From: Halobellus limi | Lineage (GTDB): Archaea; Halobacteriota; Halobacteria; Halobacteriales; Haloferacaceae | NCBI RefSeq assembly: GCF_004799685.1 | Contig: NZ_CP031311.1 | Span: forward strand, 62,001 to 126,000 | Direction of reading: 5' to 3' | DNA length: 64,000 bases | Part shown: piece by piece, positions 9,198-50,603 of the stretch | Layout: each line of letters starts with the position of its first letter | Numbering within the stretch: the first letter of the stretch is position 1 | The notes under the pieces: generated by a model | The model's database searches: none | Seen by the model: the letters and a program-made list of their open reading frames with translations, nothing else | What the model was told of the DNA's origin: nothing | Made by a program: the position numbers and the translations under genes

Positions 9198-11021
9198 TCA
9201 GTTGTCAAAACGCGCCTGGACGAACGGCTGGGCGTTCTCGATGTCGCCGAGCCGCGAGTCAGAGAGGAGCACCGCCTCCGTCTCGTCGATGGGGACCGAC
9301 AGCGAGATCTCCTTCGTGCGGCCGTATCGTCCCTTCGAGACGACGACGGCGTTGACGATGCCGAGCATATCGAGTTCGGAGATGAGGTCCGTCACGCGCC
9401 GCTGGGTGAGGACGTCGGCGTCGATCTCCTCGCAGAGCCGTTTGTAGATGTTGAACACCTCGCCGGTATTCACATTTCGAACGCCGTTCTTTTCGAGGAG
9501 GATCGTCGCGAAGAGGACGATCTTCGACTGCGTCGGGAGCGTCCGCACGACCTCGACGACGCGGTCCAGTTCGATCTTGTCCTGGGCCTGTCGGACGTGC
9601 GCTTCCTCGACGGTGTCGGCCTGCCCGCGTTCGGCGAGTTCGCCGGCGGTGCGGAGGAGATCCAGCGCGCGGCGGGCGTCACCGTGCTCCTGTGCGGCGA
9701 AGGCCGCGCACAGCGGGATGACGTCGTCGGTGAGCGCGTCGTCCTTGAACGCGACGTTCGCGCGGTGTTGCAGGATGTCCCGGAGCTGGTTCGCGTCGTA
9801 CGGCGGAAAGACGATCTCCTCCTCGCCGAGGCTGGACTTCACTCGCGGGTCGAGAAAGTCTGTGAACTTCAGGTCGTTCGAGATCCCCATAATGGAGATC
9901 CGCGAGTTGTCGAGTTCGGAGTTCATCCGCGAGAGGTTATACAGCGTGTCGTCGCCGGACTTCTCGACGAGTTTGTCGATCTCGTCGAGCATGATGACGA
10001 CGACCCGTTCCCGGTAGTCGACCGCGTCGAAGAACGTCGAGTACACGCGGTCCGTGGGCCAGCCGGTCATCGGGACGGGCTCCATCTCGTCGCGGTCGGA
10101 CTCGAGCTCCTCGATGCGGGACTCCACCTCGTCTGCCGTCTCGTACGCCGAGCCAGCGAGCGCCGTCGGGTCGTCGACGGCCTGTGGGTGGAGTTCGTTC
10201 AGTTCGTCGAGTTCCGTCTCGATCACGTCCTGGTTCTTCTCGATGAACTTGTTCGCGAGCTGGGCGAGGACGCGATACTGCGTGTCCGTCACCTCGCAGT
10301 TGATGTACTCGACCTCGCAGGGAACGTCGTACTTCTTCGAGGTCGATTCGAGTTCCTGGCTGACGAACTTCGCGCTCGCGGTCTTTCCCGTGCCCGTTTT
10401 TCCGTAGATCAGGATGTTGGAGGGCGTTTCTCCTCGAAGCGCAGAAACGAGGATCGTCGCCATCTGGTTGATCTGTTCGGTCCGATGTGGGAGCTCCCGC
10501 GGCGTGTACGAGGGCCGGAGGACTTCCTTGTTCTCGAAGATCGGCTCCCCCGAGAGCAAGTCGTCGAAGAGCCCCTGACTGTCGCCGTCGTCGTCGTCGA
10601 GGACGACTTCGTCGAGGCTCACCTCCGTCGTTCCGGCCGTCGAGTCACCGACTCGGATCGAGTCGGGGTCCTCGGGTCCGATGCTCTCTTCGATGTCGAT
10701 GTCCTCGGCTGTCACGGGTTCTGCGCTCTCCGGTTGCGAAGAATCGCCGCGAGACGTTGCAGATTCTCCACCGCCGTCGGAGTCATCGCGGGAGGGATCC
10801 TCGATGCCCTTATTTCGGGAGGGATCGTCGACGTCCAGCGGTTGCTCACCGGCGTCGAACTGCGCGTCAGAACCGGATCCATCCGTCGGTTTCGGTGAAT
10901 TCGCACTTTCGCTCCCGTCCGTCGTGTCGGCGGCGCTGGACTCGGATTCGACTACGTCGCCCTCATCGACGTCCTCGCCTGCGCGCCCGTTCTCATCGCC
11001 GGATTGTGTTTCTTCGTCCAT
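9198..11021 (-). CDS. orc1: Orc1/Cdc6 replication initiator
   Basis: AAA+ origin-binding initiator protein, 607 residues. Residues 1 to about 155 are an Asp/Ser/Glu-rich low-complexity extension. The AAA+ core has Walker A YGKTGTGKT at about 206, Walker B VVVIMLDEID at about 341, sensor 1 ISIMGISNDL, and the sensor 2 region HGDARRALDLL. The C-terminal winged helix (about 490-590) contains TQRRVTDLISELDMLGIVNA and binds ORB DNA. An acidic insertion of about 60 residues sits between Walker A and B. The start is ATG at 11021; a TTG five codons upstream is less likely. It lies next to an AT-rich origin with ORB-like boxes and oap genes, as expected for the main haloarchaeal origin. Confidence 0.95.
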   Translation of the reverse strand: MDEETQSGDENGRAGEDVDEGDVVESESSAADTTDGSESANSPKPTDGSGSDAQFDAGEQPLDVDDPSRNKGIEDPSRDDSDGGGESATSRGDSSQPESAEPVTAEDIDIEESIGPEDPDSIRVGDSTAGTTEVSLDEVVLDDDDGDSQGLFDDLLSGEPIFENKEVLRPSYTPRELPHRTEQINQMATILVSALRGETPSNILIYGKTGTGKTASAKFVSQELESTSKKYDVPCEVEYINCEVTDTQYRVLAQLANKFIEKNQDVIETELDELNELHPQAVDDPTALAGSAYETADEVESRIEELESDRDEMEPVPMTGWPTDRVYSTFFDAVDYRERVVVIMLDEIDKLVEKSGDDTLYNLSRMNSELDNSRISIMGISNDLKFTDFLDPRVKSSLGEEEIVFPPYDANQLRDILQHRANVAFKDDALTDDVIPLCAAFAAQEHGDARRALDLLRTAGELAERGQADTVEEAHVRQAQDKIELDRVVEVVRTLPTQSKIVLFATILLEKNGVRNVNTGEVFNIYKRLCEEIDADVLTQRRVTDLISELDMLGIVNAVVVSKGRYGRTKEISLSVPIDETEAVLLSDSRLGDIENAQPFVQARFDN

Positions 11022-11028
11022 CCGTGTA

Positions 11029-11052
11029 CCCCCCAATTTCGACTGGAAATTA
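11029..11052 (-). promoter_or_regulatory. Degenerate ORB-like box at the orc1 start
   Basis: ACCCCCCAATTTCGACTGGA resembles the reverse complement of the two strong ORB boxes, keeping the ACCCC run and the ACTGGA core. It overlaps the bases just upstream of the orc1 ATG and could mediate autoregulation by Orc1. Confidence 0.4.
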
Positions 11053-11473: not shown

Positions 11474-11504
11474 ACTCCCCCCACCCCTTCGTTTCAACTG
11501 GAGA
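11474..11504 (-). promoter_or_regulatory. ORB-like origin recognition box, left
   Basis: On the minus strand it reads CTCCAGTTGAAACGAAGGGG followed by a G-rich run. It matches the haloarchaeal ORB pattern of a dyad-like TCCAGTTGAAAC core followed by a G-string. Its G-string points away from the AT-rich segment, opposite in orientation to the box at 11678. Confidence 0.8.
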
Positions 11505-11536: not shown

Positions 11537-11630
11537 ACCACTAACACTACTAAATTCAAATATATTAATAGACAAAATTAATTCTAGTATTGCAGTACGG
11601 ATACCGTTTGAATTATTAGAATATAAATCC
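11537..11630. other. AT-rich duplex unwinding element of the origin
   Basis: About 94 bases with a much higher A+T content than the rest of the window (for example TAAATTCAAATATATTAATA), placed between two inverted ORB-like boxes. This is where the helix would be expected to open first. Confidence 0.8.
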
Positions 11631-11677: not shown

Positions 11678-11709
11678 GTCTCCACCTGAAATGAAGGGGT
11701 GGGGGGCCC
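11678..11709 (+). promoter_or_regulatory. ORB-like origin recognition box, right
   Basis: It reads TCTCCACCTGAAATGAAGGG followed by GTGGGGGGCCC on the plus strand. It is the inverted partner of the box at 11474-11504 across the AT-rich segment, and the two share the pattern CTCCA-x-x-TGAAA-x-GAAGGGGTGGGGGG. Confidence 0.8.
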
Positions 11710-16762: not shown

Positions 16763-17443
16763 ATGAGCGTCAGAAACGAGTTCGACGCCTGGGCGGCCGA
16801 CGGGCGCGACAGGGGGATGGAAGAACGCCACTGGCACACCGCGAAGCGCGCGCTCGCGCGGATGCCCGTGGAGGCGGGAGACACGGTCTTGGACCTCGGG
16901 TGCGGGAGCGGGTACGCCGGCCGAGCGCTCCGGGACACCAAAGACGCCGGTCGCGTCTACGGTCTCGACGGGGCCCCCGCGATGGTTCGGAACGCGCGGT
17001 CCTACACGGACGATCCGAACGTCGGCTACCTCGTCGGCGACTTCGACGCGCTGCCGTTCGCCGACGACAGCGTCGATCACGTCTGGAGTATGGAGGCGTT
17101 CTACTACGCCCGGGACCCGATCCACACGCTCGAAGAGGTCGCACGGATCCTCCGCCCCGGCGGCACGTTCTACTGCGCGGTGAACTACTACGAGGAGAAC
17201 GTCCACTCCCACGAGTGGCAAGACCGGATCGACGTCGAGATGACGCGGTGGTCCGCCGACGAGTATCGGGAGGCGTTCCGCGAGGCAGGACTGGCCGTAG
17301 CCGAACAGGACTCGATCCCGGACCGGGAGATCGACATCCCGCCGGCGGAGGCGTTCCCGACCGACGACTGGGACTCCCGAGAGGCGATGGTCGAGCGGTA
17401 CCGAACGTACGGGACGCTCCTCACCGTCGGCGTCGGTCGCTGA
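16763..17443 (+). CDS. SAM-dependent class I methyltransferase
   Basis: A 226-residue Rossmann-fold methyltransferase. Motif I is VLDLGCGSGYAGRAL at about residue 40, followed by the acidic residue of motif II in VYGLDGAPAMV. Motif III is VGDFDALPFADDSVDHVWSM and motif IV follows with EVARILRPGGTFYCAVNYY. It belongs to the UbiE/Methyltransf_11 group; the substrate is unknown. The last codons GTCGGCGTCGGTCGCTGA are the seed of the downstream 26-bp array. It diverges from the DUF2391 gene. Confidence 0.92.
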   Translation: MSVRNEFDAWAADGRDRGMEERHWHTAKRALARMPVEAGDTVLDLGCGSGYAGRALRDTKDAGRVYGLDGAPAMVRNARSYTDDPNVGYLVGDFDALPFADDSVDHVWSMEAFYYARDPIHTLEEVARILRPGGTFYCAVNYYEENVHSHEWQDRIDVEMTRWSADEYREAFREAGLAVAEQDSIPDREIDIPPAEAFPTDDWDSREAMVERYRTYGTLLTVGVGR

Positions 17444-17560
17444 ACGCCCATATTCGGCGTCGGTCGCTACCCGTCGGCGTCAGTCGCTAACTGCCCACGT
17501 CGGCGTCAGTCGCTAACTGCCCACGTCGGCGTCAGTCGCTAACTGCCCACGTCGCTACCG
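17426..17560. repeat. 26-bp tandem array seeded by the methyltransferase 3' end
   Basis: The first copy (17426) contains the final five codons and TGA stop of the methyltransferase. A decayed copy lies near 17453, then three near-identical copies at 17473, 17499 and 17525 (GTCGGCGTCAGTCGCTAACT plus GCCCAC), and a partial one at 17551. Each of the three clean copies carries TAA, and the 26-bp period shifts it through all frames. Confidence 0.9.
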
Positions 17561-17586: not shown

Positions 17587-18872
17587 TTATCGAACGTCGA
17601 CCCGTTCGAGGACGTGCGCCGCAGTGGCCGCGAAGCCGACCCGGACCTCTCCGACGGGCGGATCCGTCGTCCGAACCGTTAGCTCCCGTCCGTTCCAACG
17701 GAGATACGCCCGGGTCGAGTCGCCGAGGAACTCCGCGCCCGACACCGTCGCGTCGAAGACGTTGGTCACGACTCCGGAGGCCGGCCGGTTTCGCGTCGCT
17801 CCGTCCGACTCATCATCGTCGAGCAGGTGCATCGCCTCGGGGCGAACGCAGAACACGATCCGGTCTCCACTGGAAAGAGGCGTCTCTGTCTCGATCGCGA
17901 CCCGAGCACCGTCGATGTCGACTTCGATTTCTCTCGATGCCGAGTCAGTTTCGGGGGACGCTGACCCGGTCTCCGTGGACGTTTCTCGGGCCTGTGTCGT
18001 TCGATCGTCCCCTTCCCGATCGGCGTCGCCCCCGGACCGAACCCCCTTCGTTTCAACTGGAGATCGGCCGTCTCCGGGGGTCGAGGCGGGTCGGTTTTCG
18101 CCGTCCTGTCCGCGGATGGAGACGACTTCCCCTCGAAGACGTTGTTGTCGCCGACGAACTCCGCGACGAAGCGGGTCGCGGGGCGACGGTAGACCTCCTG
18201 CGGCGTCCCGACCTGTTCGACCGCACCGTCGTTCATCACGGCCACGCGGTCGGAGACGGCCAGCGCCTCCTCCTGATCGTGCGTGACGTACAGCGTCGTG
18301 ATTCCGAGCGTCGACTGGATCTCCTTGATCTGCATCCGAAGTCGTTCCCGGAGGCGCGCGTCGAGCGCACTCATCGGTTCGTCGAGCAGCAACAGGTCCG
18401 GACCGGGCGCGATCGCCCGGGCGAGCGCGACGCGCTGCTGCTGTCCGCCGGAGAGTTCGGTCGGGTCCCGATCGCCCATCTCCGGGAGGTCGACGAGATC
18501 GAGCAGCGACGCGACCCGTTCGTCCCGACTGACGCCGCCCGGCGGCTCGGCGAACCGGAGCCCGTAGGCGACGTTCTCCGCGACCGAGAGGTGCGGGAAG
18601 AGCGCGTAGTTCTGGAAGACGACGCCGACGCCCCGGTCCTCGGGGGGGACCCCTCCCATCTCGCGGCCGTCGAACCGAACGGTCCCCGACGTGGGGGCGT
18701 CGAAGCCGGCGACGAGCCGGAGCGTCGTCGTCTTCCCACAGCCCGACGGCCCGACGAGGGTGAAGAACTCCCCGTCGCCGACGTCGAAACCGATCCCTCG
18801 GTCCTCGTCTTCCCGACCGAGCGCGACCGTCTCGCCGTACTCCTTCCGGACGTTTTCGAGCGTCAGTTTCAC
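17587..18872 (-). pseudogene. thiQ: ThiQ-type ABC transporter ATPase, frameshifted
   Basis: ATP-binding subunit of a thiamine-type ABC importer. From a GTG at 18872 the nucleotide-binding domain is intact: Walker A GPSGCGKTT, Q-loop FQNYALFPH, signature LSGGQQQR, Walker B LLLLDEPMSALD and H-loop VTHDQEEAL. At residue 247 the frame breaks. A four-G run (18129-18132) follows the codon for Glu, and one extra G would restore GEVVSIRGQDGEN and continue through an acidic linker into a clean TOBE domain (FCVRPEAMHLL to the stop at 17587), total 428 residues. As written the frame instead runs in basic nonsense to a stop at 17766. It may be a real lesion or a one-base sequence error. It follows the permease gene by two bases. 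Confidence 0.82.
18041..18063 (-). promoter_or_regulatory. ORB-like sequence inside the thiQ linker
   Basis: On the minus strand it reads TCTCCAGTTGAAACGAAGGG plus GG. This matches the left ORB of the origin over about 20 bases, although it lies about 6.5 kb away and inside a gene. It sits in the low-complexity linker, where the protein sequence is little constrained. Confidence 0.6.
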
Positions 18873-47826: not shown

Positions 47827-49602
47827 CTAGGCGAACTTTCGGACGGTCATGTCGAGCGTGTCGAGGTCGAGGATCGGCGCGTAGCCGACGTCGGGGTCGA
47901 TGTTGACGGACTTCTGGAAGTCGGTCTGGGCCTGCCAGCACCCCGAATTGACCGCCAGGACGTCGTGGTACTTCCCCCAGCCGAGCTTGTGGACGTGTCC
48001 GGTGTGGAAGACGTCCGGGACCTCCTCCATCACGAGGTAGTCCTTCTCCTCGGGCGCGAGGCGCGTCTTCCCGCCGAACTGCGGCGCGACGTGGCGCTTC
48101 TTCAGGAGCTGATACATCGCCTTGTGCGGGTCGTCGTAGCTGGCCTTCTCCTCTGGCAACTCGGCGATGACCTCGTCGAGCGAGACGCCGTGGTACATCA
48201 GCACCTTCACGCCCTCGACGGTCACGAGCGACGGGTTGCCCGTGATGCGGGCGTCGTGTGCCGACATGATATCCCTGAGGTTCTCGTCGAACCCGGGCTG
48301 GGGCTCGGCGAGGCGGACCGCGTCGTGGTTGCCCGGGATCATCAGGATCTCCATATCGCCGGGGACGTCCTTGAGGTGCTCGGAGAACCGCTCGTACTGC
48401 TCGTAGATGTCGACGATGTCGAGTTCCTCGTCCTGGTCCGGGTAGACGCCGACGCCCTCGACCATGTCGCCCGCGATGAGGAGGTACTCCACGCGCTCGG
48501 CCTCCTCGGTGTGGAGCCAGTCGGCGAAGCGGGTCCAGGCGTCGGCCTCGAACTCCTGGCTGCCGACGTGGATGTCCGAGACCAGCGCCGCCTGCACGTG
48601 TCTGTCGGCGGTGTTCGGCGAGTACGTCCGCGGCACGTCCGGGAAGTGCATCGAGTCGACGAACATGATCCCCGCGTCGTCCGAGAGGGTCCCCTCGACG
48701 GCGATGCACTCGTCGAGCAGCAGTTCGTCGACGAGTTCGGCGAACTCCCGGTCTTTCATCACCAGACACGGGAACGTGCCGGTCGTGTCCTCCAACTCCA
48801 CGAGCCAGTGGCCGCTCTTCGTCGATCGGATGTCGTTGACGAGGCCGACCATCGCCGCGTCCGTCCCGCCGCTCATCGACTGGATCGCCGTCGCCGGCCG
48901 GTGGTTCACCCGCCCGCGGAGCTGTTTCGAGAGCTTCTCGTAGCGGTCTCTGAACACTTTCACGAAGTCGCCGTACTCGCCGGTGCCGGTGCTCTGACCG
49001 GTCACGTCGCCGGCGACTTCCAGCGACCGGAGCGAGGGGTCGACGGTCCGCGACGCGGCGGGTGCGGCGTCCCCCGGTGACGTTCCGCCGCCGGACGCAG
49101 CGCCCGCAGTTTCCTCTGGAACGTTTCCGCTCCCACTACCCGCCTCTGTCTTCCGGTATCCACGCTCGTCTCCAGTGGAAACGGAGGGGTCTTGTGAACC
49201 GGAACCACTCTCTCCGACGTCGGCTGGGGCATCGCCTCTCCCCGGGTTCGTGGTCTCGTCTCTCCTCGGAGTCGAGGCATCTCTTTCTCCCCGGTTCGGA
49301 GCATCACCTCCCACCGCCGAGACGTCGTCTTCTATCGTCTCTGCGCCGTTCTCCATCGTCGAGACGTCGTCCGCTCTCGTCTCGGCGTCACGTGCATCCG
49401 ACGACGGACGTGCGTCCCCGAGGGCGTCTCGGACGTCGTCGGCCGTGATCCGGAGGGCGGCGTCGTCGACGTGCTCGACCACCCGTTCGAGCGTCCGTCC
49501 CGGTCGCTCGGTACTCGCGATGAGCGTCACGGCCGCCTGCTCGGCGTTGTAGCCCCGCGCCGCGAGCTCCCGAACGATGCGAACCGGCGTCTCCAGAGGC
49601 AC
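47827..49602 (-). CDS. polD1: DNA polymerase D small subunit DP1
   Basis: Small (exonuclease) subunit of the archaeal replicative polymerase PolD. The 591-residue protein has a short N-terminal region (about 1-75), a Gly/Ser/Asp-rich linker from about 75 to 190, an OB-fold (MVGLVNDIRSTKSGHWLVEL, then CLVMKDREF) and the phosphoesterase/3'-5' exonuclease domain: VSDIHVGS, IAGDMVEGVG, IPGNHDAVR, MYHGVSLDE and TGHVHKLGW, all ligands present. The start is GTG at 49602. The linker contains an ORB-type sequence. The large subunit gene is not in the window. Confidence 0.93.
   Translation of the reverse strand: MPLETPVRIVRELAARGYNAEQAAVTLIASTERPGRTLERVVEHVDDAALRITADDVRDALGDARPSSDARDAETRADDVSTMENGAETIEDDVSAVGGDAPNRGERDASTPRRDETTNPGRGDAPADVGESGSGSQDPSVSTGDERGYRKTEAGSGSGNVPEETAGAASGGGTSPGDAAPAASRTVDPSLRSLEVAGDVTGQSTGTGEYGDFVKVFRDRYEKLSKQLRGRVNHRPATAIQSMSGGTDAAMVGLVNDIRSTKSGHWLVELEDTTGTFPCLVMKDREFAELVDELLLDECIAVEGTLSDDAGIMFVDSMHFPDVPRTYSPNTADRHVQAALVSDIHVGSQEFEADAWTRFADWLHTEEAERVEYLLIAGDMVEGVGVYPDQDEELDIVDIYEQYERFSEHLKDVPGDMEILMIPGNHDAVRLAEPQPGFDENLRDIMSAHDARITGNPSLVTVEGVKVLMYHGVSLDEVIAELPEEKASYDDPHKAMYQLLKKRHVAPQFGGKTRLAPEEKDYLVMEEVPDVFHTGHVHKLGWGKYHDVLAVNSGCWQAQTDFQKSVNIDPDVGYAPILDLDTLDMTVRKFA
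49168..49192 (+). promoter_or_regulatory. ORB-like sequence inside the PolD small subunit gene
   Basis: TCTCCAGTGGAAACGGAGGG followed by GTC, the full haloarchaeal ORB pattern of a dyad-like core plus a G-string. It lies about 38 kb from the origin, in the disordered linker of the protein. Confidence 0.6.
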
Positions 49603-49712: not shown

Positions 49713-50603
49713 ATGACGGACGAAAAGGGGAACCCGAACGCGCCCGACCGTCCGGACCCGGCTCGGCGCGACGACGGACCGTCGGGCGAGACGGCGACGG
49801 ACCCCGGCGACGGATCGGATCCGGTCGACGACGGATCGGATCGGGACGGGTCGGGACCGACTGACCGCTCCGGCGTCGCCGACGGTGAAGAGACGGCCCG
49901 GATCCCGCCCGGCGTCGCCGACTCCCGCCGCAGGTCCGACGGTCGCCCCCGACCGCAGCCCGGAAGCCGGGCCGCCGACCGCGACGCGGGTCTTCTGACG
50001 CGCTTTCGGACGGCACAGAGCGGGCCGCTGCTCTTCATCCGCGAGACGCTCTACAGCGCGCTCGCCGTCGCCGCCGTCGGCTTCCTCCTCTTCGCGATCA
50101 GCGGCGTCTGGCCCCCGATGGTCGCCGTCGAGAGCGGGAGTATGGAGCCGGAGATGTCCCGCGGCGACCTGATCTTCGTGACCGAGCCCCACCGGTTCAC
50201 GCCGGAGTACGCCTACGGCGACACGGGCGTCGTGACGGTCGACATCGGAAGCGAGGAGGGCTACCGGAGCTTCGGCGGCAACGGCTCCGTGGTGATCTAC
50301 GACCCCCCCGACCGCGCCGGCTCGCCGATCATCCACCGGGCGCACTTCTACGTCGAGGAGGGCGAGAACTGGTACGACCGGGCGAACCCCGACTATATGA
50401 ACGCGAACGACTGCAGTCAGCTCTCGAACTGCCCCGCTCCGCACGACGGGTTCATCACGAAGGGCGACGCGAACGCGCGGTACGATCAGGCGAGCAACAT
50501 CGCCGGCCCGGTTCGCTCCGAGTGGATCCGCGGGACCGCCCGGATCCGGATTCCCTACCTGGGGTACGTCCGGCTCAAGCTGGCCGGAGCGATCGCGGCC
50601 TGA
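49713..50603 (+). CDS. sec11: Type I signal peptidase, Sec11-type
   Basis: A second S26 peptidase, 296 residues. An acidic, disordered N-terminal tail of about 100 residues precedes one helix (TLYSALAVAAVGFLLFAISG), then the catalytic Ser motif VAVESGSMEPEMSRGD, the His motif SPIIHRAHFYVEEGEN and the Asp motif DGFITKGDANARYDQ. It is probably the general secretory signal peptidase. It diverges from the PolD gene and differs from the peptidase at 40999, which has extra membrane helices. Confidence 0.92.
   Translation: MTDEKGNPNAPDRPDPARRDDGPSGETATDPGDGSDPVDDGSDRDGSGPTDRSGVADGEETARIPPGVADSRRRSDGRPRPQPGSRAADRDAGLLTRFRTAQSGPLLFIRETLYSALAVAAVGFLLFAISGVWPPMVAVESGSMEPEMSRGDLIFVTEPHRFTPEYAYGDTGVVTVDIGSEEGYRSFGGNGSVVIYDPPDRAGSPIIHRAHFYVEEGENWYDRANPDYMNANDCSQLSNCPAPHDGFITKGDANARYDQASNIAGPVRSEWIRGTARIRIPYLGYVRLKLAGAIAA

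Follow-up and report, generated by a model that had tools for sequence, protein, structure and literature searches.

Introduction

Two described systems are among those closest to the locus reported here. In Haloarcula hispanica, a separate region rich in origin recognition boxes (ORBs), oriC2D, restrains the origin oriC2, likely by titrating the initiator Cdc6E (PMC3936714). In E. coli, DnaA boxes are enriched near oriC, and their early doubling has been argued to favour titration of the initiator (PMC12371093). The published prediction of haloarchaeal ORBs, as far as its procedure is described, was made on the intergenic sequence flanking orc/cdc6 genes (PMC3528665) and would not have detected boxes located in genes. 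Our literature search, which covered few subscription journals, found no description of ORBs inside the gene for DP1, the small subunit of DNA polymerase D (PolD).

Here we analyse such a box in a stretch of 64,000 nucleotides from Halobellus limi, called the window below (C1:62001-126000 of a 3.75 Mb genome), and its counterparts in other Halobacteria.

Results

The ORB inside the DP1 gene

The DP1 gene of the window (47827-49602, minus strand, 591 aa) was identified by NCBIfam NF003116.0, 'DNA-directed DNA polymerase II small subunit', with 974 bits. It is divergent from a signal peptidase I-like gene, sec11 (49713-50603, plus strand; TIGR02228, 50.4 bits, slightly below the cut-off of 51.85). 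Antisense to DP1, the ORB core TCTCCAGTGGAAACGGAGGG occupied 49169-49188 on the plus strand as an exact match to the ORB consensus and was followed by GTC, the intact box covering 49169-49191. The origin-type core TCTCCAGTNGAAACRRAGGGG was likewise exact at 49169-49189. The initial annotation had given 49168-49192, where the sequence is present, with one base too many at each end, and had rightly placed it in the DP1 linker: the box encodes residues 139-145, within DPSVSTGD, of the low-complexity N-terminal linker. Three ORB matches with ≤3 mismatches were detected in the window, compared with a shuffle mean of 0.00.

The description of this site as a complete ORB holds for the core, which is genuinely of ORB type. 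The box continues with GGGGTC, however, and the long G-string that follows the core of origin-type boxes is absent. Because this second G-run is missing, the DP1 box is not a complete origin-type ORB. It is also not a single site. One box is intact, and its decayed inverted partner at 49103-49122 on the minus strand, 66 bp from the intact box, had been overlooked; the partner has 5/20 mismatches and retains CCAGNGGAAAC. The intact box is the '-' member, and the surviving half, of an inverted pair found class-wide in DP1.

oriC1 and matches across the genome

The orc1 gene (9198-11021, minus strand; NF001625, 650 bits) encodes the Orc1/Cdc6 initiator and adjoins oriC1, the stretch between orc1 and the divergent downstream gene. 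Inverted ORBs flank an AT-rich stretch there (about 11540-11630). An origin-type ORB, found as a pattern match and followed by GGGGTGGGG, lies at 11485-11504 on the minus strand, and the second ORB, inverted across the AT-rich stretch, lies at 11679-11698 on the plus strand (inverted repeat I1). A distance of 37.7 kb separates the DP1 box from the ORB at 11485 in oriC1, in agreement with the approximately 38 kb first proposed.

An ORB-like variant, CCAGTCGAAATTGGGGG, was observed at 11030-11046 on the minus strand, about 9 bp upstream of the orc1 start codon, and autoregulation of orc1 through this variant is possible. Elsewhere in the window, 17425-17554 contained five tandem copies of a ~26 bp unit (CGTCGGCGTCAGTCGCTAACTGCCCA), three of them identical.

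The initial annotation had allowed for a match no better than chance in a genome-wide scan, and the scan gave a different picture. The whole genome contained six matches to TCTCCAGTKGAAACGRAGGG with ≤3 mismatches, five of which fell within 73 kb around oriC1, and all four matches with ≤2 mismatches fell within the same 73 kb. The reversed pattern, used as a control at ≤3 mismatches, gave one match.

Conservation of the box in DP1

Of the 95 DP1 loci sampled, named records supplied 79 and the genus 16; removal of four duplicates left 91 distinct genes. L156, the match of which begins at residue 139, was excluded. An ORB was present inside DP1 in 33, 55, 69, and 80 of the 91 genes at 0, ≤1, ≤2, and ≤3 mismatches, respectively. 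Synonymous-codon shuffles (30 per gene) gave means of 0.07, 0.53, 3.8, and 16.7 and maxima of 1, 3, 10, and 23 at the same thresholds. The boxes with ≤2 mismatches lay at bp 192-486 of the gene, usually one or two boxes occurred per gene, and every DP1 match was in a single frame. DP1 sequences are related, so these counts are not independent and the argument rests on the spread across families. A family scan of 60 genomes gave ORB matches with ≤2 mismatches in 52, and none for the reversed pattern.

At the wobble positions the bases agreed with the ORB, contrary to the codon usage of DP1 (GC3 84%). GTT was observed in 23/23 cases (1.6 expected), ACT in 28/29 (2.5), GGA in 29/33 (3.9), CCA in 28/29 (3.2), and GAA in 28/30 (8.4). 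As the wobble bases are kept as ORB despite codon usage, selection acts on the DNA. Conservation in the DP1 genes of relatives beyond the level of the protein, the check suggested at the outset, is thereby borne out by both the shuffles and the wobble bases. Chance as the origin of the DP1 match is ruled out by the window shuffles, the genome-wide scan, and the synonymous shuffles.

Eleven of the 91 genes had no DP1 box at ≤3 mismatches: L094 (Haloferax elongans); L102, L136, L138, and L167 (Halolamina); L153, L078 (Haloquadratum type); and L070, L077, L079, and L080, the last of which is incomplete. The box-less lineages are Haloferax elongans, Haloquadratum, and two Halolamina. Since boxes are absent from some lineages, the element is common but dispensable over evolution.

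Geometry of the inverted pair

Among the 40 genes with a '-' box (≤2 mismatches), a box on the opposite strand (≤2 mismatches) was found at 54 bp in 22, at 51 bp in two, and at 66 bp in one, with none at 12 other offsets tested. The length of the linker took 52 values among 87 genes and thus varied freely while the spacing was fixed; these spacing and linker figures refer to the 87 of 91 genes with anchors, four being without them. The exact inverted pair, with a gap of 26-50 bases, was present in 86 of 392 genomes of the order and in 38 of 95 genera, and its reversed pattern occurred in none of the 392 genomes. Among the matches listed, 75 exact pairs were examined and 73 were inside DP1, with a spacing of 54 bp in 66, 51 bp in four, and 66 bp in three. 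The two remaining pairs were in G357 (L235, in the orc1 gene) and in G146 (L232, outside DP1 and orc1). The pair in G146 (C9:47404-47454) was inverted with a shorter spacing, about 25-27 kb from orc1.

In core Halobellus, the best partner was exactly 66 bp off in 12 of 12 DP1 genes and had decayed by 1 to 9 mismatches, the partner in the window by 5. The ancestral DP1 form appears to have been an inverted ORB pair with 54-bp spacing. The spacer between the boxes contained 69% G+C, compared with 65% for the whole gene (22 pairs). A second replication origin inside DP1 was also considered and is unlikely, as the AT-rich element is absent between the boxes of these 22 pairs.

Position of DP1 relative to orc1

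The usual order in relatives was orc1-sec11-DP1, and in most of them DP1 started 2-4 kb beyond the orc1 match start. In all 46 rows (44 distinct genomes) that had DP1 and orc1 on a single contig, the two genes were ≤46 kb apart; in G050 they were on different contigs. Where DP1 was 14-46 kb from orc1, 15 of 17 genomes retained the ORB at ≤2 mismatches, the exceptions being G061, with a box at 3 mismatches, and G065, with none within 3. In the 73 exact-pair genomes among the matches listed, the pair was 1.1-3.8 kb past orc1 in 59; in two it was on another contig, in one it was at the end of a contig, and in the others it was 9-78 kb away. G146, the pair of which is not in DP1, is one of the 9-78 kb cases. 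Although DP1 has apparently been relocated and inverted several times, it was never more than about 80 kb from orc1 when both were on the same contig.

Two classes of ORB

A second G-run followed 69 of the 112 boxes (≤3 mismatches) upstream of orc1, 0 of 109 in DP1, 0 of 22 in orc1, and 1 of 40 elsewhere. In place of the second G-run, DP1 boxes favour GGGGTC. A review describes binding of the G-string by the AAA+ domain after strand opening (PMC7776575). We infer that the satellite boxes bind Orc1 and do not prepare unwinding.

Satellite ORBs around oriC1

A search of 33 genomes gave 130 ORBs with ≤2 mismatches, of which DP1 contained 30, orc1 one, and the 2.5 kb that precede the start of the orc1 match 31. 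The remainder were located at 2.5-20 kb (19), 20-100 kb (18), and 100-200 kb (8), further away on the same contig (4), and on other contigs (19). Thus 37 of the 130 matches were 2.5-100 kb from orc1, and 23 were beyond 200 kb or on other contigs. The reversed pattern gave two matches in total in the same 33 genomes. Outside oriC, DP1, and orc1, the density was about 5.6 per Mb within 100 kb, compared with about 0.2 per Mb elsewhere. Putative Orc1 sites therefore lie outside the origin and are concentrated near it, as in a titration locus. The dense cluster of many boxes that would also mark such a locus was not seen, DP1 of the window having one intact and one decayed box.

A further satellite ORB of the window (18044-18063, minus strand) belongs to an ABC-transporter ATPase gene, where it is part of the C-terminal extension, at a distance of 6.6 kb from oriC1. 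It was kept directly after the nucleotide-binding domain in 8 Halobellus-group genomes (L002, L037, L039, L040, L041, L045, L048, L059) among the 17 genomes searched, 6-7 kb from oriC1 in those with the distance checked. To our knowledge, this ABC-transporter gene has no role in replication. A 2-mismatch ORB-like match with A/T-ending codons was observed in the N-terminal coding part of a KefB-type antiporter gene (L004; G000 C1:145847-145866), 72 kb from oriC1. As a second conserved satellite this site was rejected, no counterpart being seen among the matches listed for the genus.

ORBs inside orc1 itself were frequent in Natrialbaceae-type loci, with 14 matches in 63 loci; an orc1-internal box was seen at one recurrent place in L097, L105, L108, L118, L119, L120, L127, and others. 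In a hand tally of compensation for a missing DP1 ORB, no clear difference was found between genomes without a DP1 ORB (11 extra near-origin boxes in nine genomes) and the others (26 in 24).

Discussion

Proposed initiator titration and its rivals

The explanation we prefer, with a confidence that stays somewhat short of even, is that the DP1 site acts as a binding-only satellite of oriC1, which would sequester Orc1 and restrain re-initiation, and that it is half of an apparently ancestral pair. Orc1 made beside oriC1 would bind the DP1 boxes, and in the paired form two inverted Orc1 monomers would sit about five helical turns apart on the same face. Because the site is close to oriC1, it would be copied just after initiation; competing Orc1 sites would rise at once, free Orc1 would fall, and re-initiation would be restrained. 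Titration requires sites that are crowded near oriC1, because these are duplicated immediately after initiation. The box had been put forward as a candidate titration site from the beginning, which fits the origin-centred distribution of satellites and the published oriC2D case (PMC3936714).

Several results count against titration. One or two boxes make a small sink compared with the 11 ORBs of oriC2D, and there are lineages without boxes and with no clear compensation. A pure sink need not remain in DP1 nor hold a 54-bp spacing, which suggests a more specific complex. The fixed pair in DP1 is ill suited to a purely passive sink, so control of DP1 has to be taken seriously as an alternative.

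In this main rival, which we regard as rather unlikely, Orc1 would bind the inverted pair inside the gene, 0.2-0.5 kb from its start, and would block or slow RNA polymerase, so that the supply of the PolD small subunit would depend on free Orc1. The exact pair occurs in DP1 throughout the class and hardly anywhere else among the matches listed, it follows DP1 through relocations of up to 78 kb, and its geometry is fixed; a function of Cdc6A in transcription, away from oriC1, has also been proposed by Wu et al. (PMC3936714). The other satellites, however, are in unrelated genes and cluster by their distance to oriC1, and a satellite in a transporter gene is ill suited to a purely DP1-specific role. 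Satellites scattered across about 100 kb to both sides of oriC1, together with an inverted pair at near-integer helical spacing, would also agree with a part in origin architecture. Orc1 on the satellites would then bridge to oriC1, through either looping or handcuffing, or would label the origin region for segregation, in the way that centromere-type sites cluster near bacterial origins. We consider this improbable, as the boxes are free to vary in how far from oriC1, and on which side of it, they lie (−40 to +78 kb), and the 22 pairs analysed have no AT-rich unwinding element between their boxes.

A still smaller chance is given to a binder other than Orc1 that recognizes the same core, such as another Orc paralogue or a nucleoid protein. 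The missing second G-run and the favoured GGGGTC of the DP1 boxes would suit such a binder, but their 20-bp core is that of the oriC1 ORBs, and the same pattern occurs upstream of orc1 (67 matches). That the match stems from chance or from a motif of the protein (PSVSTG and PVETEG) has next to no probability. All DP1 matches share a single reading frame, and the peptides they encode are therefore the same; nevertheless, the synonymous shuffles retain the protein and lose the ORB, the wobble bases follow the ORB against usage, and the reversed pattern gave 0 matches in 79 loci. The shuffles and wobble bases refute a protein motif, barring a codon bias that mimics the ORB.

Implications

If titration of Orc1 by the DP1 site is right, Halobacteria may count their initiator as E. 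coli does. We advance this tentatively, and with slightly less confidence than the titration role itself: a class-wide Orc1 trap, the fixed pair in DP1, would be joined by changing satellites near oriC1, which form a second ORB class that binds the initiator without opening DNA. The question bears on how archaea prevent re-initiation. The site is conserved, compact, of known position, and removable by synonymous changes, and titration and polymerase control are thus separable by experiment; working genetics are established for haloarchaea. The DP1 site may also be relevant to why cdc6A is reportedly hard to delete in Haloarcula hispanica, even though oriC1 is dispensable there (PMC3936714).

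Comparison with known systems

The DP1 boxes share with the ORB elements (Orc1/Cdc6 boxes) of oriC1 the 20-bp core, the arrangement as an inverted pair, and the genome region. They differ in that they are part of a coding sequence and have neither an AT-rich element between them nor the second G-run, and in their spacing of 54 bp, compared with 147-334 bp for the nearer oriC1 pairs. The gene order oriC-cdc6-DP1-DP2 of Pyrococcus links DP1 to the initiator gene and the origin, as in Halobacteria, and we know of no ORB pair inside DP1 in Pyrococcus. With datA and the DnaA-box enrichment of E. coli, the locus shares initiator sites that are concentrated near the origin and copied early; the E. 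coli system, as the source describes it, works with bacterial DnaA and hundreds of short boxes and has no class-wide pair fixed in one gene (PMC12371093). The likeness to oriC2D of Haloarcula hispanica lies in ORBs outside the origin for which initiator titration has been proposed. That region, which adjoins oriC2, has its 11 Cdc6E ORBs together in a single intergenic cluster (PMC3936714), whereas here one or two boxes in DP1 are accompanied by scattered boxes near oriC1, many of them in genes.
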